From contig JAJYDX010000010.1 in NCBI GenBank assembly GCA_021777135.1, positions 1-49,537 of the forward strand: a stretch of DNA of 49,537 nt, given 5' to 3'. Made by a program: the position numbers and the translations under genes. Below, piece by piece: positions 17,298-24,387 of the stretch. The notes under the pieces were generated by a model. It saw nothing but the letters and a program-made list of their open reading frames with translations. It was not told the origin of the DNA and made no database searches. Origin of the DNA: a bacterium (GTDB lineage: Bacteria; SZUA-79; Acidulodesulfobacterales; Acidulodesulfobacteraceae). How positions within the stretch are numbered: the stretch's first letter is position 1; the number at the start of each line of letters is the position of its first letter.

Positions 17298-17326
17298 TTG
17301 TTAATTACTAAGAAATGTTATATAAT
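17298..17326 (+). promoter_or_regulatory. Sigma-70-like promoter for the ferritin-FNT gene
   Basis: TTGTTA (17298-17303), 17 bases, then a perfect TATAAT (17321-17326). Transcription would begin near 17333, so the ATG at 17315 would not be in the mRNA, and translation would start almost at the 5' end at ATG 17336. Confidence 0.5.
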
Positions 17327-17335
17327 TTATACATT

Positions 17336-18769
17336 ATGACTGACTTATACTTAAAAAACGACGATAACGAAAGCGCTTCAGAAAAAGCTCATCATACTAA
17401 AGCGGTCGAAGACTCCATAGCACTTCTTCAAAAGTATCTTACGGCGGAAGTGGCTGGAAGGGATTTGTATACGGAACAGGCTAAAACGCTAAAAGACCCT
17501 ATTTTAGTTCAGGCTTTAAAATCTTTTGCCTCAACCGAAAGCGGACACATTATAAATATTAGGGAAAAGATAACCGAACTAGGCGGTACGCCAAAGTCCC
17601 TTAACGAAATAAGGGAAGCACAGAAAGGCGTCAGCGAAGCTTCTCATCAGGTTGCCGCGCCTTTAGACATGTTAAGGATAGATTTAAAAATAGAAGAGAA
17701 TGCAATCAACGATTACACCGCCGGTCTTGAAATTATTGAAGACCCTGGAGTAAGGGCGCTAATCGAAAATAATCTTGCCGAAGAAATACACCACTCTTTA
17801 TATTTATCTAAAAGAATAAACGAAATTCTTGAAACTACCAAAGCCCGAATAGGCGCTATTAAAGGCATAGAAAAGCCGGGCGGGAAAGAGGCGTCGGAAA
17901 TATTCAAGGCCTCGGTAGAAGTAGGAGAGGCAAGACTTAAAAGAAGCTGGCTTGAAATGTCTATGTCCGGTCTTATAGCCGGCATGAACGTTACTTTCGG
18001 CATAATCGCTTCTTCCTATGTCGCGGCGGCAACATCGCCTTTCGTAGGTATCAACGTTGCTAAAATATTAGGAGCGCTGTTTTTCCCAATAGGCTTTATG
18101 TTTTTAATGATAGGTAAAAGCGAACTTTTTACCGAGAATTTTCTGGTTCCTGTAAGTGCCGTAATTGCAAAAAGAGGTAAGATCAAGCAGCTTTTAAAAT
18201 TATGGTCGCTTACCTTAATAGGCAACATGGCTGGAATTTTTATTTTCGCGTTAGTAATCGCCGGTTCTTTGAACCAAATAGTTCCGTCGTTCGTCGTAGC
18301 CCATATACACTCTATGGCTAATAATTATATGGACAGAACTCCATTTGTAATGGTGTTAAGCGCCATATTTGCCGGTTGGCTGATAACCCTTATGACATGG
18401 CTCTTAATAGCTTCAAGCGGTACCCTCGCAAGAATTTTTATTATATGGACGGTCGGTTTTCTTATATATCTTAATTCGTTCAGCCACATAGTCGTGGCAT
18501 CGTCCGAGATTTTAATCGCCATCAATACCGGTTCCAATATCTCATATCTTCCGTGGCTTTATTCATATGTTCCGTTGACTATTATAGGCAATATGATAGG
18601 CGGATTATTTTTTGTTACTATTCTTCAATATCTTCAGATTTTACATTCTACCGACGCAGGCAGCAGGGACGAAGGACTTGTTTCTTCGCATCAGTTAAAT
18701 ATGGCCGGCAGCGATGGCCCCGGCAGCAAAAACTTTGAAAATGTAGAAAATATAGAAGACACGCTTTAA
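17336..18769 (+). CDS. Ferritin-like diiron domain fused to FNT channel
   Basis: A 477-residue fusion (484 if ATG 17315 is used). Residues 20-165 form a four-helix ferritin-like domain with the metal-ligand pattern Glu38, E68-x-x-H71, Glu120/121, E150-x-x-H153. From about residue 190 the protein is a formate/nitrite transporter-family channel (SMSGLIAGMNVTFGIIASSYVAAA, PIGFMFLMIGKSELFTENFLVPV, then further helices), closest in look to the YfdC-like branch. FNT proteins form pentameric anion channels; a ferritin-like head could oxidise or sense iron or peroxide on the cytoplasmic face. The coupling is inference. I prefer ATG 17336 because a promoter overlaps 17315. Confidence 0.85.
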   Translation: MTDLYLKNDDNESASEKAHHTKAVEDSIALLQKYLTAEVAGRDLYTEQAKTLKDPILVQALKSFASTESGHIINIREKITELGGTPKSLNEIREAQKGVSEASHQVAAPLDMLRIDLKIEENAINDYTAGLEIIEDPGVRALIENNLAEEIHHSLYLSKRINEILETTKARIGAIKGIEKPGGKEASEIFKASVEVGEARLKRSWLEMSMSGLIAGMNVTFGIIASSYVAAATSPFVGINVAKILGALFFPIGFMFLMIGKSELFTENFLVPVSAVIAKRGKIKQLLKLWSLTLIGNMAGIFIFALVIAGSLNQIVPSFVVAHIHSMANNYMDRTPFVMVLSAIFAGWLITLMTWLLIASSGTLARIFIIWTVGFLIYLNSFSHIVVASSEILIAINTGSNISYLPWLYSYVPLTIIGNMIGGLFFVTILQYLQILHSTDAGSRDEGLVSSHQLNMAGSDGPGSKNFENVENIEDTL

Positions 18770-18882: not shown

Positions 18883-19560
18883 ATGGAATATAATGAAAAA
18901 GGGGTAAGCATAGTACCTTCCGAATTTAAGAAAGAAATTTTCGAAGAAGCCCGAAAAGATTTCAGATACGAAGAATACGTCAGAGGTTGTTTAAATTGCG
19001 GCGTATGCACCGGAGGATGTCCGCCTCACAGATTTTTCGATTTCTCACCCCGCATAGTCCTTCAAAATATGAAGTCTAAAGACCCAGAGCTTATATGGAC
19101 GATGATGGACGAATATATTTGGGCGTGTTTCCAGTGTTTTACCTGCGCTATGATTTGTCCTTTCCTGAACAGTCCGGGAGGAATTATCGCCATATTAAGA
19201 GAAATTGCCGTCAGGAGAGGATTCGAATCGGCAAGGAAAGTCCTTAAGCCTTATTCAAGAGTTTTACTCAAACTTACCGCTTACGGCAACCAGTTATCGC
19301 CGGATATGATACAGCCGGATTTTTTCCCAGACTGGGGTCCGACCATAGGATATGCTTCTACCGACCTTGCCGTGAAAAGAAAAGCAATTCCCATGCCGAC
19401 CCTTCAGGTTACTAATTTGGCTTGGGACGTTGCTCCTGAAACAATGAAAGAATTGTATGAAATATTTGACGAATCCGGTGTTTTTAAAATAATAGAATCC
19501 GTGGACCCTTCGCTTTATGAAATAATACAGGATATAGTCGACGACGTTAGAAGTTCTTAA
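18883..19560 (+). CDS. hdrC1: sHdr subunit HdrC1, two [4Fe-4S] ferredoxin-like
   Basis: A 225-residue iron-sulfur protein, first gene of the sulfur-oxidation heterodisulfide reductase-like (sHdr) complex. It has two C-x2-C-x2-C-x3-C-P sets: Cys36, 39, 42, 46 (GCLNCGVCTGGCP) and Cys82, 85, 88, 92 (ACFQCFTCAMICP). It should pass electrons between HdrA flavin and HdrB catalytic clusters in the cytoplasm. AGGAGAA precedes the ATG. The order that follows, B1, A, hyp, C2, B2, is the one known from Hyphomicrobium and Acidithiobacillus sHdr loci. Spacing to hdrB1 is 40 bases. Confidence 0.92.
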   Translation: MEYNEKGVSIVPSEFKKEIFEEARKDFRYEEYVRGCLNCGVCTGGCPPHRFFDFSPRIVLQNMKSKDPELIWTMMDEYIWACFQCFTCAMICPFLNSPGGIIAILREIAVRRGFESARKVLKPYSRVLLKLTAYGNQLSPDMIQPDFFPDWGPTIGYASTDLAVKRKAIPMPTLQVTNLAWDVAPETMKELYEIFDESGVFKIIESVDPSLYEIIQDIVDDVRSS

Positions 19561-19600
19561 ATTCAGGTTAAATTTTTATTTAATTCAGGAGATATTTTAT

Positions 19601-20803
19601 ATGGATATCGAAATAGCCAACAGGCTCGGTCTTGCAAATATTAAATCTGATTATATTCATGCCGCCGGAAGAAAGCTTGAAGATATTCACGAGCACCTTC
19701 TAGAGCTTGAAGCGAAAGGAGAAGTTAAAGTCATACACGTAAAAGACGAGAATAAGCCGATAGAGGCAGATACTTTATTGGGCTGGAAGAAAAAGATACC
19801 TACCAACAAACTATGGCATCATAAATCTTGCGGACAGTGCGGCAATATCCCTGGATATCCTGTTTCACTGCTATGGTTTATGAACCAAATGGGTTTGGAA
19901 TACGTCGACGAAAGAAACCAAACCTCATGTACCGCTTGGAATTATCACGGTTCTGGAACTTCTAATCCTGTCGGGCTTGCGGCTGTCGCGGTAAGGAACT
20001 GGCACAGGGCTTACGAGCTAGGATTATTCCCTTTGTTTCACTGCGCTACCACCTTTGGCGACTATAAAGAAATGCGCAATATGCTTGTAGAATACAAAGA
20101 ACTGCGTGACGAAGTCAGGAGGATAATGCATAAAATTGGCAGGGAATTAGTTATCCCGGAATACATAGTGCATTACAGCGAATGGGTCCACGTTATGCGC
20201 TTCGAAATAGCAAAATTAAAAAAATACGATTTAAGCAACGTCATAGCTACCGTCCATCCCGCATGCCATACCTATAAAATGATACCCGAAGACTGTATAT
20301 ACGACAAAGATATATATGCCGGAAAAAGAACTGCCGTTTCTACCGGAGTTGCCCTTGCGCTTGGCGCGCAGGTTGCAGACTACTCTACATGGTATGACTG
20401 CTGCGGATTCGGCTTTAGGCACATACTAACCGAAAGGGAAGCGTCCAGGTCTTTCGTTATGGACAGGAAGATAAGGCCCATGGTTAGAGAAGCTCATTCA
20501 GACGTTTGTTTAACGCAGGATACCGGTTGCACCACTACTTTAGATAAAAACCAGTGGATAGGGAAAGCCATGGGCTATACCGAACAGGTTCCCGTTATGG
20601 CAGACGTTATGTTTGCGGCGTTAGCATGCGGAGCCGACGTCTATAAAATAGTTCAGCTTCAATGGCATACGACGGATTGGAGACCTCTATGCGAAAAGAT
20701 AGGGATAGACTGGAAAAAATCTGAAGAAGAATATAACGCGTATCTTGAAGAACTGAAATCGGGCGGCAAAACCGTTAATTTATACGAGTATCCTAAAAAT
20801 TAA
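19601..20803 (+). CDS. hdrB1: sHdr subunit HdrB1, CCG-domain protein
   Basis: A 400-residue HdrB-type subunit expected to carry cubane or noncubane [4Fe-4S] clusters for cleaving or forming a disulfide-like sulfur intermediate. Cys sets visible are KSCGQCGNIPG with QTSCTAW in the first half, and HPACHTYK, DCCGFGFRH and DTGCTTTLD in the second. The large size compared with methanogen HdrB and the distinctive first motif fit the sulfur-oxidiser B1 type. It begins after AGGAGAT, and hdrA follows 27 bases later. Along with HdrC1 it would form one of the two B-C electron branches on HdrA. Confidence 0.9.
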   Translation: MDIEIANRLGLANIKSDYIHAAGRKLEDIHEHLLELEAKGEVKVIHVKDENKPIEADTLLGWKKKIPTNKLWHHKSCGQCGNIPGYPVSLLWFMNQMGLEYVDERNQTSCTAWNYHGSGTSNPVGLAAVAVRNWHRAYELGLFPLFHCATTFGDYKEMRNMLVEYKELRDEVRRIMHKIGRELVIPEYIVHYSEWVHVMRFEIAKLKKYDLSNVIATVHPACHTYKMIPEDCIYDKDIYAGKRTAVSTGVALALGAQVADYSTWYDCCGFGFRHILTEREASRSFVMDRKIRPMVREAHSDVCLTQDTGCTTTLDKNQWIGKAMGYTEQVPVMADVMFAALACGADVYKIVQLQWHTTDWRPLCEKIGIDWKKSEEEYNAYLEELKSGGKTVNLYEYPKN

Positions 20804-20830
20804 TAATTTAAAAGCTTTGGAGGATTTTAT

Positions 20831-21874
20831 ATGGCGGAAAATATTTTGGTAGTAGGAGGAGGACCTGCAGGTTTAAACGCTGCGGTTATGCTCGCGGAAT
20901 TAGGAGTTAACGTATCTTTAGTAGAAAGGGATTCGTTTCTAGGCGGCAACCCAAAAAAATTCAAATACAAATTTTTGTTTCCAGATATGCAGCCTGCCGA
21001 TAACGTAATTGGAGAACTTATTAAAAAGGCTGAAACCGGCGGCAATATAAAAGTTTATTATTCTTCAGAAATATCGGATTTTAAAGAAAACGGAAAAAAA
21101 TTCGACGTTACCATAAAAACTGCCGATAAGAACGAATTAAAAACTTTCGATTCGGTTATAGTTTCTACGGGATTTGAACATTTCGACCCGGCTAGGGACG
21201 CAAAATATTCATACCAGCTATTCGACGACGTAATAGATATAAAAGACCTTGAAAGAATGATGGGCGAGGATAATTTCGTGAGACCTTCTAACGGACAGCC
21301 TCCAAAGAACGTTGCTTTTATATTATGCGTAGGCTCCAGGGACAGGCACGTCGGAAACCAGTATTGTTCGAGAGTTTGCTGTACGGTTTCCGTAAAACAG
21401 GCCATCGAATTAAGGGAACATTTTCCGGCTTGCGAAGTATATATATTTTATATGGATATCAGGACATACGGTTTCTTTGAAGATTTATACTGGAAGGCAA
21501 TGGAAGAGCATGACGTGCAGATAGTTAAAGGCAGGATTGCCGAAATTACCTCCGGACCTAATAATACTGTCGTATGCAAGGGAGAGGACACTCTTTTAAG
21601 AGGTCCATTTGAGATTCCTTTTGACATGGTAGTTTTGGCATCCGGCATGGAAGGCGGACCGCAATCGTCTGAAATATCGAAAAAACTTGGTATAGGACTC
21701 GACGAACACGGTTTTTTAAAGCCTGAAAATGTTACCCTGTCGCCTTTTAAATCAAACAGGGACGGGGTTTTTCTTGCAGGGGCATGCACCGGACCAAAAG
21801 CCATTTCGGATTCTATTACCGAAGGCGCTGCCGCAGCTATGAACGCTTATACTTATGCCGTTAAGAACAAATAA
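20831..21874 (+). CDS. hdrA: sHdr subunit HdrA, flavoprotein
   Basis: A 347-residue FAD protein. The dinucleotide fold starts ILVVGGGPAGLNAAVMLAE (residues 4-22), and the closing FAD motif is DGVFLAGACTGPKAISDSITEGAAAA. The middle has FILCVGSRDRHVGNQYCSRVCC, the HdrA-type cysteine segment. It is much shorter than methanogen HdrA (no C-terminal ferredoxin domains), which is typical of the sHdr version. In the complex the flavin would accept or distribute electrons from sulfur oxidation, ultimately to NAD+ or quinone in current models. GGAGG precedes the ATG. Confidence 0.92.
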   Translation: MAENILVVGGGPAGLNAAVMLAELGVNVSLVERDSFLGGNPKKFKYKFLFPDMQPADNVIGELIKKAETGGNIKVYYSSEISDFKENGKKFDVTIKTADKNELKTFDSVIVSTGFEHFDPARDAKYSYQLFDDVIDIKDLERMMGEDNFVRPSNGQPPKNVAFILCVGSRDRHVGNQYCSRVCCTVSVKQAIELREHFPACEVYIFYMDIRTYGFFEDLYWKAMEEHDVQIVKGRIAEITSGPNNTVVCKGEDTLLRGPFEIPFDMVVLASGMEGGPQSSEISKKLGIGLDEHGFLKPENVTLSPFKSNRDGVFLAGACTGPKAISDSITEGAAAAMNAYTYAVKNK

Positions 21875-21891
21875 ATAAAAACATTGGGATA

Positions 21892-22671
21892 ATGCCGTAT
21901 ATTTTAAAAAACAATAAAATAGATAAAAGATACGAAGAAAAATTCTTTGAAATCGTCAAAGAAAATCTGCCCTTAGAAAAAATAGAGTCTTTTAACAGCC
22001 TTTTAACAGTTAAGTCGCAATTAATAAAAGAATTCTTATCGGGCATAATAAAAACAGGCGGAAAATTAGAAAAAGAAAAATTTGACGAAATATTGTCCTT
22101 AATTTTTTCAATAAGAAGGCACAGGAATAAAATTTTAGATACATCAAGTATAGACAGCCTTAATTATGCGTTCAGTTTTTTTGAAGATTATAAAAAATCG
22201 GCTGAAATAAGAATAGGACGCTTTCTAGAAGCATTTTCTTACGAAGACATTATGGTTAAAAGAGACATTGCTTTAGAAATTCTACATTTTTACGAACCTG
22301 AGAAAAATGTTTTATGGACCTCTTGGATTTACAGGCAGGATAACGGCACGGGATGCCTTCCTTATATGGCGGATTTTTTAAAAAGAACGTGGGACGGAAA
22401 ACCATATATTATGCCGTTCAGTATTAAAGAAATGAAGGACGAAACAGATTATTTGTATGATTTGTCCGGCAGAAACGGACTAAATTTAAAGCGTCCGTAC
22501 GGGACAGATATTCTTTTAAGCTATATGTATTCGGATTACGTATATAAAATGGTATATGCTGAATCTAAGTCTTTGTCCGTAGGCGTTCCGGAAGGATTCA
22601 CTCTAATGAAAAAACTGCTGGGAATCGAAAAGCTAGAAGCTCAAAGAAATGAAAAAAGCCTGGTAGCTTAA
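21892..22671 (+). CDS. sHdr-associated conserved protein (Hyp, sHdrH position)
   Basis: A 259-residue soluble protein at the place of the conserved 'hyp' gene of sHdr operons, between hdrA and hdrC2 (17 and 21 bases spacing). It is helical and charged, with no Fe-S cysteine set; only GTGCLPYM contains a cysteine. No domain is recognised by eye beyond this synteny. In known sHdr systems this gene co-occurs strictly with the operon, so it is probably a structural or accessory subunit. The ATG has only a weak ribosome site (TTGGGATA), suggesting coupling to hdrA. Confidence 0.8.
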   Translation: MPYILKNNKIDKRYEEKFFEIVKENLPLEKIESFNSLLTVKSQLIKEFLSGIIKTGGKLEKEKFDEILSLIFSIRRHRNKILDTSSIDSLNYAFSFFEDYKKSAEIRIGRFLEAFSYEDIMVKRDIALEILHFYEPEKNVLWTSWIYRQDNGTGCLPYMADFLKRTWDGKPYIMPFSIKEMKDETDYLYDLSGRNGLNLKRPYGTDILLSYMYSDYVYKMVYAESKSLSVGVPEGFTLMKKLLGIEKLEAQRNEKSLVA

Positions 22672-22692
22672 GGGAAAAATAAAGGAGGTTTT

Positions 22693-23463
22693 ATGGCTTT
22701 GGAAAAACAGGAAAACAGGCCGGTTGCCGAAAAAGGCGAGCATATCATAGCAAGACATCTAATAGAAGACGACAACATTAAAGAAGAAAAAAATTTAGTT
22801 ATTGACGGAGTTGATGTTTCAGGCAGGTGGAATACTTTTATTCTTTCGAGGGTTGATTCCGAATTCGACAGAAGTTTTTTTAAAGAGGTTAAGGAAACAG
22901 TGGTAGGTTCCAGAATTAACAGGTGCTGGCAGTGCGGAATGTGTACGGCAAGCTGTACCGTAACACCCCTATACAGGCGGTTTAATCCCAGAGCGTTTAT
23001 ATATATGATGCAGCTCGGCAATTTAAAAGAGATAAAGAAGTATATCGATGTTGCATGGAGATGCGTAGGCTGTTATAAATGTTCTCAGAGGTGCCCCAAA
23101 CAGGTAAATCCGGCAGAGATGATGGAAGCGCTAGGGCTTCTTATAAAAAAATATTTTCCGGAAGAGGTTAAAAGCAAATTGAAAGTTGACGAAGACGTTA
23201 AAAAAATATACGACGATATGATTGTAGGACACGGGAGGCTTGATTTAGCTAAACTGCATACATCGGCTATGCAAAAAACAGGAAGAACAAAAGAACTGAT
23301 CGGAAAGATTGAAAGGGATGCCATCTTTAAAATGGCTAAAGACGGCAGGGCATTTTCTATATTACGGCTTGGCAAGCCCCATAACTGGAGCAGTTCCAAG
23401 GAAGCGATAACAGGCTATTTAAAAAATATTAACACTATTGAAAACGGCGAATCGGGGGTTTAA
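22693..23463 (+). CDS. hdrC2: sHdr subunit HdrC2, two [4Fe-4S] ferredoxin-like
   Basis: A 256-residue iron-sulfur protein with two cysteine sets, RCWQCGMCTASC and RCVGCYKCSQRCPKQV, each able to hold one [4Fe-4S]. The longer N-terminal extension (about 75 residues) and C-terminal helices are as in sHdr C2 subunits. A very strong AAAGGAGG site lies 7 bases before the ATG. The stop TAA is directly followed by the hdrB2 ATG, so C2 and B2 are translated as a pair and probably form the second electron branch on HdrA. Confidence 0.92.
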   Translation: MALEKQENRPVAEKGEHIIARHLIEDDNIKEEKNLVIDGVDVSGRWNTFILSRVDSEFDRSFFKEVKETVVGSRINRCWQCGMCTASCTVTPLYRRFNPRAFIYMMQLGNLKEIKKYIDVAWRCVGCYKCSQRCPKQVNPAEMMEALGLLIKKYFPEEVKSKLKVDEDVKKIYDDMIVGHGRLDLAKLHTSAMQKTGRTKELIGKIERDAIFKMAKDGRAFSILRLGKPHNWSSSKEAITGYLKNINTIENGESGV

Positions 23464-24387
23464 ATGGATAAATTAAGCGAAAATCAGGCGGCATATTATC
23501 CTGGATGCGCCCTGCTGACTATAGACAGGGCATATAATAACAGTTCAAAATTAGTTTCGAAAAAGATGGGTATAGAACTTGTTGAAATACCCGACTATAA
23601 TTGCTGCGGGATAGGAGAAATGAAATCCAAAGGCGCGGCGTCTATGTATATGCCTCTAAGAAATATGATGCTTGCCAAAAGCAGGCTCGGCTCAAAAAAC
23701 TTAGTTATGGCCTGTTCAGTATGTTATCATGAGTTTAAAAGGTCTATCGCAAGGGTCAGGGAAAACAAAAATGAACTTGAAGCAGTTAATTCCATATTTA
23801 AAGAAGCGGGCGAGTTTGGAGAAGAATATGCTCCGGACGGCGACGCAAGGCACATTTTAGAATTTTTATATAATGAAAAAGGAGTTGACGAGGTAAAAAG
23901 AAATACCGTTAATCCCCTAAAAGGATTAAAAGTAGCGCCATATTACGGATGTCTTTATTCCAGACCTTCAATGTACACGTTTACAGATAAAAAACCGCAG
24001 ATGGATAACTCGGAAAGACCACGTTTTATGCACGATTTTTTGAAAGCAGTGGGGGCTGAAACGGTTTTTTACGGCAACGAAGTCCAATGCTGCGGCGGCA
24101 GGAATCTTATTCAGGATGAGGAAACCTCTTTTACTCTTTGTTCTCAGACTATTTCTAAGGCAAAAAAGGCGGGAGCCGACGTTATCGCGCTGATATGTCC
24201 TAAATGCGCTGGAGCGCTAGACGTCAACCAGCCTAAAATAGTCGAAAAATTTGGGAAGGATTCGGAGCTTCCCGTTGTTTATCTGACGCAGTTAATGGCT
24301 CTTGCCTTTGGTTTTTCAAAAAAAGAGGCAGAATTCGGCGATATGATTTCAAATCCTTTGAAAGTTATTAATGAAAAAGGCTTTTAA
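23464..24387 (+). CDS. hdrB2: sHdr subunit HdrB2, CCG-domain protein
   Basis: A 307-residue HdrB-type protein with both classic CCG cysteine-rich motifs: YYPGCAL, YNCCGIGE and CSVCYHE; then YYGCLYSR, VQCCGGRN and CPKCAGAL. In methanogen HdrB these hold two noncubane [4Fe-4S] clusters that split the heterodisulfide. In the sulfur-oxidising complex a lipoate-bound or other sulfane substrate is proposed. It ends the operon, convergent with the GT39-like gene. No lbpA-type lipoate-binding protein gene follows, although one commonly lies near sHdr genes. Confidence 0.92.
   Translation: MDKLSENQAAYYPGCALLTIDRAYNNSSKLVSKKMGIELVEIPDYNCCGIGEMKSKGAASMYMPLRNMMLAKSRLGSKNLVMACSVCYHEFKRSIARVRENKNELEAVNSIFKEAGEFGEEYAPDGDARHILEFLYNEKGVDEVKRNTVNPLKGLKVAPYYGCLYSRPSMYTFTDKKPQMDNSERPRFMHDFLKAVGAETVFYGNEVQCCGGRNLIQDEETSFTLCSQTISKAKKAGADVIALICPKCAGALDVNQPKIVEKFGKDSELPVVYLTQLMALAFGFSKKEAEFGDMISNPLKVINEKGF

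Follow-up and report, generated by a model that had tools for sequence, protein, structure and literature searches.

Membrane-bound ferritins of the MbfA (erythrin-VIT1) type are iron exporters whose transporter half belongs to the VIT family. Rubrerythrins carry a C-terminal rubredoxin domain and an extra glutamate three residues after the helix-C ligand, haem-binding bacterioferritins have a methionine directly after the helix-B glutamate, and diiron sites of the bacterioferritin (Bfr) and rubrerythrin types are reactive with O2 and H2O2. Among the formate/nitrite transporters (FNTs), whose usual cargo is small anions, the HSC-type proteins transport hydrosulfide. Translocation by FocA is under the control of PflB, which binds to the N-terminal helix of the channel (PMC5572259). 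The YfdC groups, described in a survey of 1723 prokaryotic FNTs, are characterized in FocA numbering by Glu 92, Asn 93, Gly 172 and Val 212, together with a charged residue at 86, an aromatic one at 79, a hydrophobic one other than Phe at 202 and a small one at 208 (PMC5525234); YfdC of E. coli still counts as uncharacterized (PMC10971958). Ferritin, fusion and domain architecture all go unmentioned in that survey (PMC5525234), and our literature searches for a ferritin-like/FNT fusion found nothing relevant. Here we describe such a protein, encoded in a window of 49,537 nucleotides (the whole stretch of DNA that was analysed). Both of its halves belong to ordinary families; their combination is, as far as the literature searched shows, undescribed.

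The fusion is encoded by a single uninterrupted open reading frame on the + strand (17315-18769 in the open-reading-frame listing of the window, 484 codons), with two candidate start codons and a promoter-like element upstream:

17336..18769, + strand: ferritin-like/FNT fusion gene, 477 amino acids from the ATG at 17336, with the frame open from the ATG at 17315.
17298..17326, + strand: promoter-like TTGTTA-17-TATAAT element, identified solely from its match to the consensus and its conservation; 9 nt separate its end from the ATG at 17336.

Translation most likely starts at the ATG at 17336 rather than at 17315, because the MTDLY N-terminus that it specifies is conserved in the alignment of close relatives and a TATAAT box lies 9 nt upstream; the same two observations make the start given in the earlier note (477 amino acids) the better choice. 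A TATAAT box is found at the matching place upstream of the fusion gene in the close relatives too. This arrangement suggests an mRNA that is leaderless and transcribed separately, and the gene probably has its own promoter. It is the sole FNT gene of the source genome, in which one further PF00210 protein is encoded elsewhere.

The protein comprises four parts, for which ligand and signature residues are numbered on the 477-residue form and Pfam spans on the 484-residue form:

17375..17848, + strand: ferritin-like four-helix head, residues 14-171, with ligands E38, E68, H71, E120, E150 and H153 and second-shell residues Y45 and Y127.
17849..17890, + strand: flexible linker, approximately residues 172-185, with pLDDT below 50 for residues 169-183.
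17897..18631, + strand: FNT channel domain (PF01226), YfdC-type, with F250, F254, K261, L264-F265-T266-E267-N268, G347, I377, S383-H384 and V387.
18653..18766, + strand: C-terminal tail, residues 440-477, of low confidence.

The head is assigned to the ferritin-like diiron superfamily by profile and by ligand set, from which we infer dinuclear metal binding. Residues 35-170 match PF00210 (Ferritin; E=6.7e-9, 36.3 bits against a cut-off of 24.5), and within the same span PF02915 (Rubrerythrin) scores 27.1 bits against a cut-off of 22.8; when scanned alone, the heads of all 24 fused homologues match both families. In the alignment of 24 fused proteins, in which head identity to the window protein falls as low as 24%, the ligand pattern E38 / E68-x-x-H71 / E120 / E150-x-x-H153 is invariant in every row. 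The head is invariant at L31, E38, Y45, A65, E68, H71, L82, D111, R114, E120, A123, Y127, E150 and H153, and most of its other residues vary. All six ligands align column by column with those of the Desulfovibrio desulfuricans bacterioferritin 1nf4, and a complete diiron set that is both invariant and in register with that protein marks a metal site under selection. Modelled alone, the head is predicted to be a four-helix bundle (pLDDT 91.5, pTM 0.86) with the ligands in its four long helices; its best structural matches are the Dps-like protein PA4880, a dodecameric thioferritin, a bacterioferritin and a mini-bacterioferritin. No rubredoxin domain was matched in the fusion protein by Pfam, and the position three residues after E120 is the invariant Ala123. 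The full E / ExxH / E / ExxH ligand set that the earlier note had read from the letters is thus borne out, and the two tests by which it said the reading could be refuted, a profile search and a structure prediction, did not refute it, giving two ferritin-like families above their cut-offs and a confident bundle.

In the AlphaFold2 model of the full chain, the four-helix head is followed by a low-confidence linker (residues 169-183), which is probably disordered, and then by the channel and a low-confidence tail. The channel matches PF01226 (Form_Nir_trans) over residues 195-439 (E=4.3e-48, 164.2 bits against 34.6), covering profile positions 1-239 of 240, and all 50 of the Foldseek matches listed for the full-chain model are FNTs (PfFNT, FocA, LciA and HSC; probability 1.00, TMt 0.78-0.87), so that the FNT-family channel proposed to follow the head is also confirmed. 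The pore histidine H384 (FocA His209) and L264 and T266 of the omega loop are invariant in the alignment. When FocA numbering is fixed by pairing L89 with L264 and H209 with H384, and other positions are counted from these without gaps, the channel carries the YfdC signature: K261 (86), E267 (92), N268 (93), I377 (202), S383 (208), V387 (212), G347 (172) and F254 (79). A proline at 100, reported for most YfdC-alpha members (PMC5525234), is not found at precisely that position, and the residues of the constriction are FIHV rather than YIHV. By these residues the channel is a YfdC-type FNT, a member of an uncharacterized subgroup.

Within the same family, in the Acidulodesulfobacterales lineage, the fusion is present in 23 of 30 genomes at 68-88% identity; Candidatus Acididesulfobacter diazotrophicus is a named carrier. 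Twelve more distant fusion loci, at 33-38% identity, come from metagenome-assembled genomes (MAGs) labelled Aquificota, Thermodesulfobacteriota, Proteobacteria or unclassified. One small phylum carries the fusion in 8 of its 9 genomes and in all 5 genera, one of the eight being a frameshifted copy, and a larger phylum in 4 of 198 sampled genomes. A search of viral contigs returned no relative. The fusion is sufficiently conserved to be functional.

In the channel tree, the channels of the family group with two from Bacillota and with four bare channels of Ectothiorhodospiraceae type, in a cluster (support 96/92) that leaves the distant ferritin-headed group outside. An AU test (p 0.119) does not reject a tree that holds the two ferritin-headed groups together as one, and with a profile built from the heads of the lineage, 9 of 11 distant fused-head loci outscore every free-standing ferritin-like protein sampled. 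The pairing arose either in a single fusion, followed by loss and replacement, or in two separate events.

The two Bacillota relatives, both in MAGs (L057:5101-6957 and L058:5632-6960), have an FNT channel 47% identical to that of the window, where a receiver domain stands instead of the ferritin head. This N-terminal response-regulator receiver domain (PF00072) scores above the Pfam cut-off in both, and a divergent GGDEF gene adjoins both genes. The phospho-accepting Asp is present in these receivers and the conserved Lys is apparently absent, so they may not be classical switches. At the other FNT loci, long open frames upstream of the channel resemble GC-rich noise, these two receiver fusions excepted. 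The exchange of a receiver for a ferritin-like domain on near relatives favours a sensory, gating head, and such a swap of N-terminal domains is, among the indirect evidence, the strongest sign of control of the channel by the head.

Immediately upstream of four bare FNT channels (L062:2164-2880, L071:4336-5031, L072:290-982 and L076:5179-5958) lies a conserved gene of some 230 codons. The product of this gene, found before the Ectothiorhodospiraceae-type FNTs, had no Pfam match in the two members scanned and has C-terminal membrane helices by appearance; it is possibly a partner subunit of the bare channel.

Alignments and models together show one polypeptide in which a complete, invariant set of diiron ligands is joined to an entire FNT half with its pore histidine, a pairing conserved across distant lineages. 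Our main reading, to which we give a probability of roughly 0.5, is that the protein is a pentameric FNT of the YfdC type bearing a cytoplasmic, bacterioferritin-like diiron head, and that its flux is set by redox or iron state. The pentamer would form as in known FNTs, with one N-terminal head per subunit in the cytoplasm, each binding two irons (or Fe/Mn) and reacting with O2, H2O2 or Fe(II). The change in metal state would be relayed by way of the linker and the pre-TM1 helix to the cytoplasmic slit, whose opening or closing would make the passage of a small anion or weak acid (such as formate, hydrosulfide, bisulfite or nitrite) depend on cytoplasmic redox or iron state. The pairing of a diiron domain with an FNT has stayed intact across distantly related bacteria, and flux therefore probably responds to iron or oxygen. 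Cysteine is absent from all 13 family proteins aligned, which makes thiol sensing unlikely in the lineage and leaves the metal site as the obvious sensor; the low-confidence linker, for its part, does not favour tight mechanical coupling of head to pore. The lineage is described as facultatively anaerobic and as living in acid, iron- and sulfur-rich, low-oxygen, sulfide-rich habitats (PMC6776010), which fits a head that responds to iron or oxygen.

A head of the same composition could instead serve as a tethered scavenger, an oxidase or peroxidase at the channel mouth that protects the channel or oxidizes an incoming substrate such as hydrosulfide, with no gating. The reactivity of Bfr- and rubrerythrin-type sites towards O2 and H2O2 would suit this role, as would the flexible linker. 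So would a low-oxygen, sulfide-rich habitat (PMC6776010). A head that acted as a tethered ferroxidase or iron buffer and left the pore unaffected would, moreover, be indistinguishable in sequence from a gating one. However, the protein has no rubredoxin domain, an invariant alanine occupies the place of the extra glutamate of rubrerythrins, and a scavenging role leaves the receiver-domain swap unexplained; we regard it as unlikely.

Somewhat less credible is iron efflux or handling in the manner of MbfA, whereby the head would oxidize or collect Fe(II) and the membrane part would export iron or a counter-anion. The order of the parts is the same, with the diiron domain before the membrane part, and the omega loop carries Glu (E267) where other FNTs have Ser or Gly, a difference by which the pore may not be purely anion-selective. 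But the membrane half is an FNT rather than a VIT (in Pfam it matches PF01226 alone, and a VIT1 membrane domain was not found), the FNT histidine and hydrophobic constrictions are retained (F250, I377, H384 and V387), and among FNTs we are aware of none that transports metal cations. The habitat of the lineage, acid and rich in iron (PMC6776010), is in keeping with iron handling, as it is with control of the channel by the head, the reading that we prefer.

The third alternative arises from the neighbourhood of the gene, which in the family runs Usp, MFS (on the opposite strand), fusion gene and then a cluster outside the fusion protein that we take, from its gene order hdrC1-B1-A-hyp-C2-B2, to be sHdr:

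18883..24387, + strand: sHdr-type cluster hdrC1-hdrB1-hdrA-hyp-hdrC2-hdrB2, a neighbour of the fusion gene, named from gene order and family matches.

The fusion gene lies directly before hdrC1 in all family genomes with that flank in view, and HSC-type FNTs carry hydrosulfide; the protein might thus be a functional part of the sHdr pathway, for instance a hydrosulfide importer or bisulfite exporter whose head senses oxygen. This is doubtful on three counts. Three near-complete genomes of three other genera (G017, G018 and G020; loci L135-L137) keep an intact MFS-hdrC1 junction with no FNT gene between (in a fourth, G014, the contig ends at this junction, and absence of the fusion gene there is unsure). 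Outside the family, sHdr genes are not adjacent to the fusions in the flanks of the distant loci, where the neighbours include a radical SAM gene, tilS, a glycosyltransferase or a permease (several of these names being read from sequence). The fusion gene also has its own promoter-like site. Partnership with sHdr as the main function was set back by the first two of these observations, on account of which we read the fusion gene as an accessory module and not as part of sHdr. What the earlier note had proposed, a redox- or iron-responsive head on an anion channel in a sulfur oxidizer, is accordingly consistent with the evidence in its first part and weak in its tie to sulfur oxidation.

An artefact, either two genes joined by a frame error or a helical N-terminus that resembles ferritin by chance, was rejected as exceedingly improbable given a pairing conserved across assemblies, since the frame is open in the other genomes, which come from many assemblies, and the ligands are invariant in 24 of 24 rows with an independent fold match of the head. 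In one distant homologue (L025/L074) the fusion is indeed split within the head by a frameshift, which probably reflects an error of assembly or sequencing.

A more specific form of our reading, in which five heads report the oxygen or iron state directly to the FNT pore and the protein belongs to a modular YfdC-type branch with interchangeable N-terminal control heads, is put forward tentatively. The receiver-headed version in Bacillota suggests such a general design, that of channels with exchangeable sensor heads. The YfdC subgroup is without known substrate or function, and a conserved diiron site offers a direct handle on its stimulus; G017, G018 and G020, set against the carriers, provide a natural presence/absence comparison for the fusion gene. 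If gating by the head holds true, this would be, as far as we know, the first channel of the FNT family under the control of a metal redox site.

Among the described diiron proteins, the head has the four-helix bundle in common with bacterioferritin, mini-bacterioferritin and Dps-like proteins (1nf4, 9qq4 and 8w1d), with ligands in register with 1nf4, but it is joined to a membrane channel whereas theirs is a free cage subunit. It differs from haem-binding bacterioferritins in carrying Ser69, where they have Met, after the helix-B Glu, and from rubrerythrin proper in having neither the rubredoxin domain nor the extra Glu, which is replaced by Ala123. In MbfA and erythrin-VIT1, as in the fusion, a ferritin-like diiron domain precedes a membrane transporter, and the comparison drawn previously is apt in that respect; the transporter there is a VIT and here an FNT, and fold and expected substrate differ. 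With FocA, NirC and HSC the protein shares a full-length PF01226 domain, the pore histidine and the FNT fold, and it is set apart from them by the attached diiron head and, like its subgroup, from other FNTs by Glu in place of Ser or Gly in the omega loop. In the FocA-PflB system, the control point is likewise the N-terminal cytoplasmic part of an FNT; the partner there is a separate enzyme, whereas in the fusion protein the diiron domain is covalently attached.
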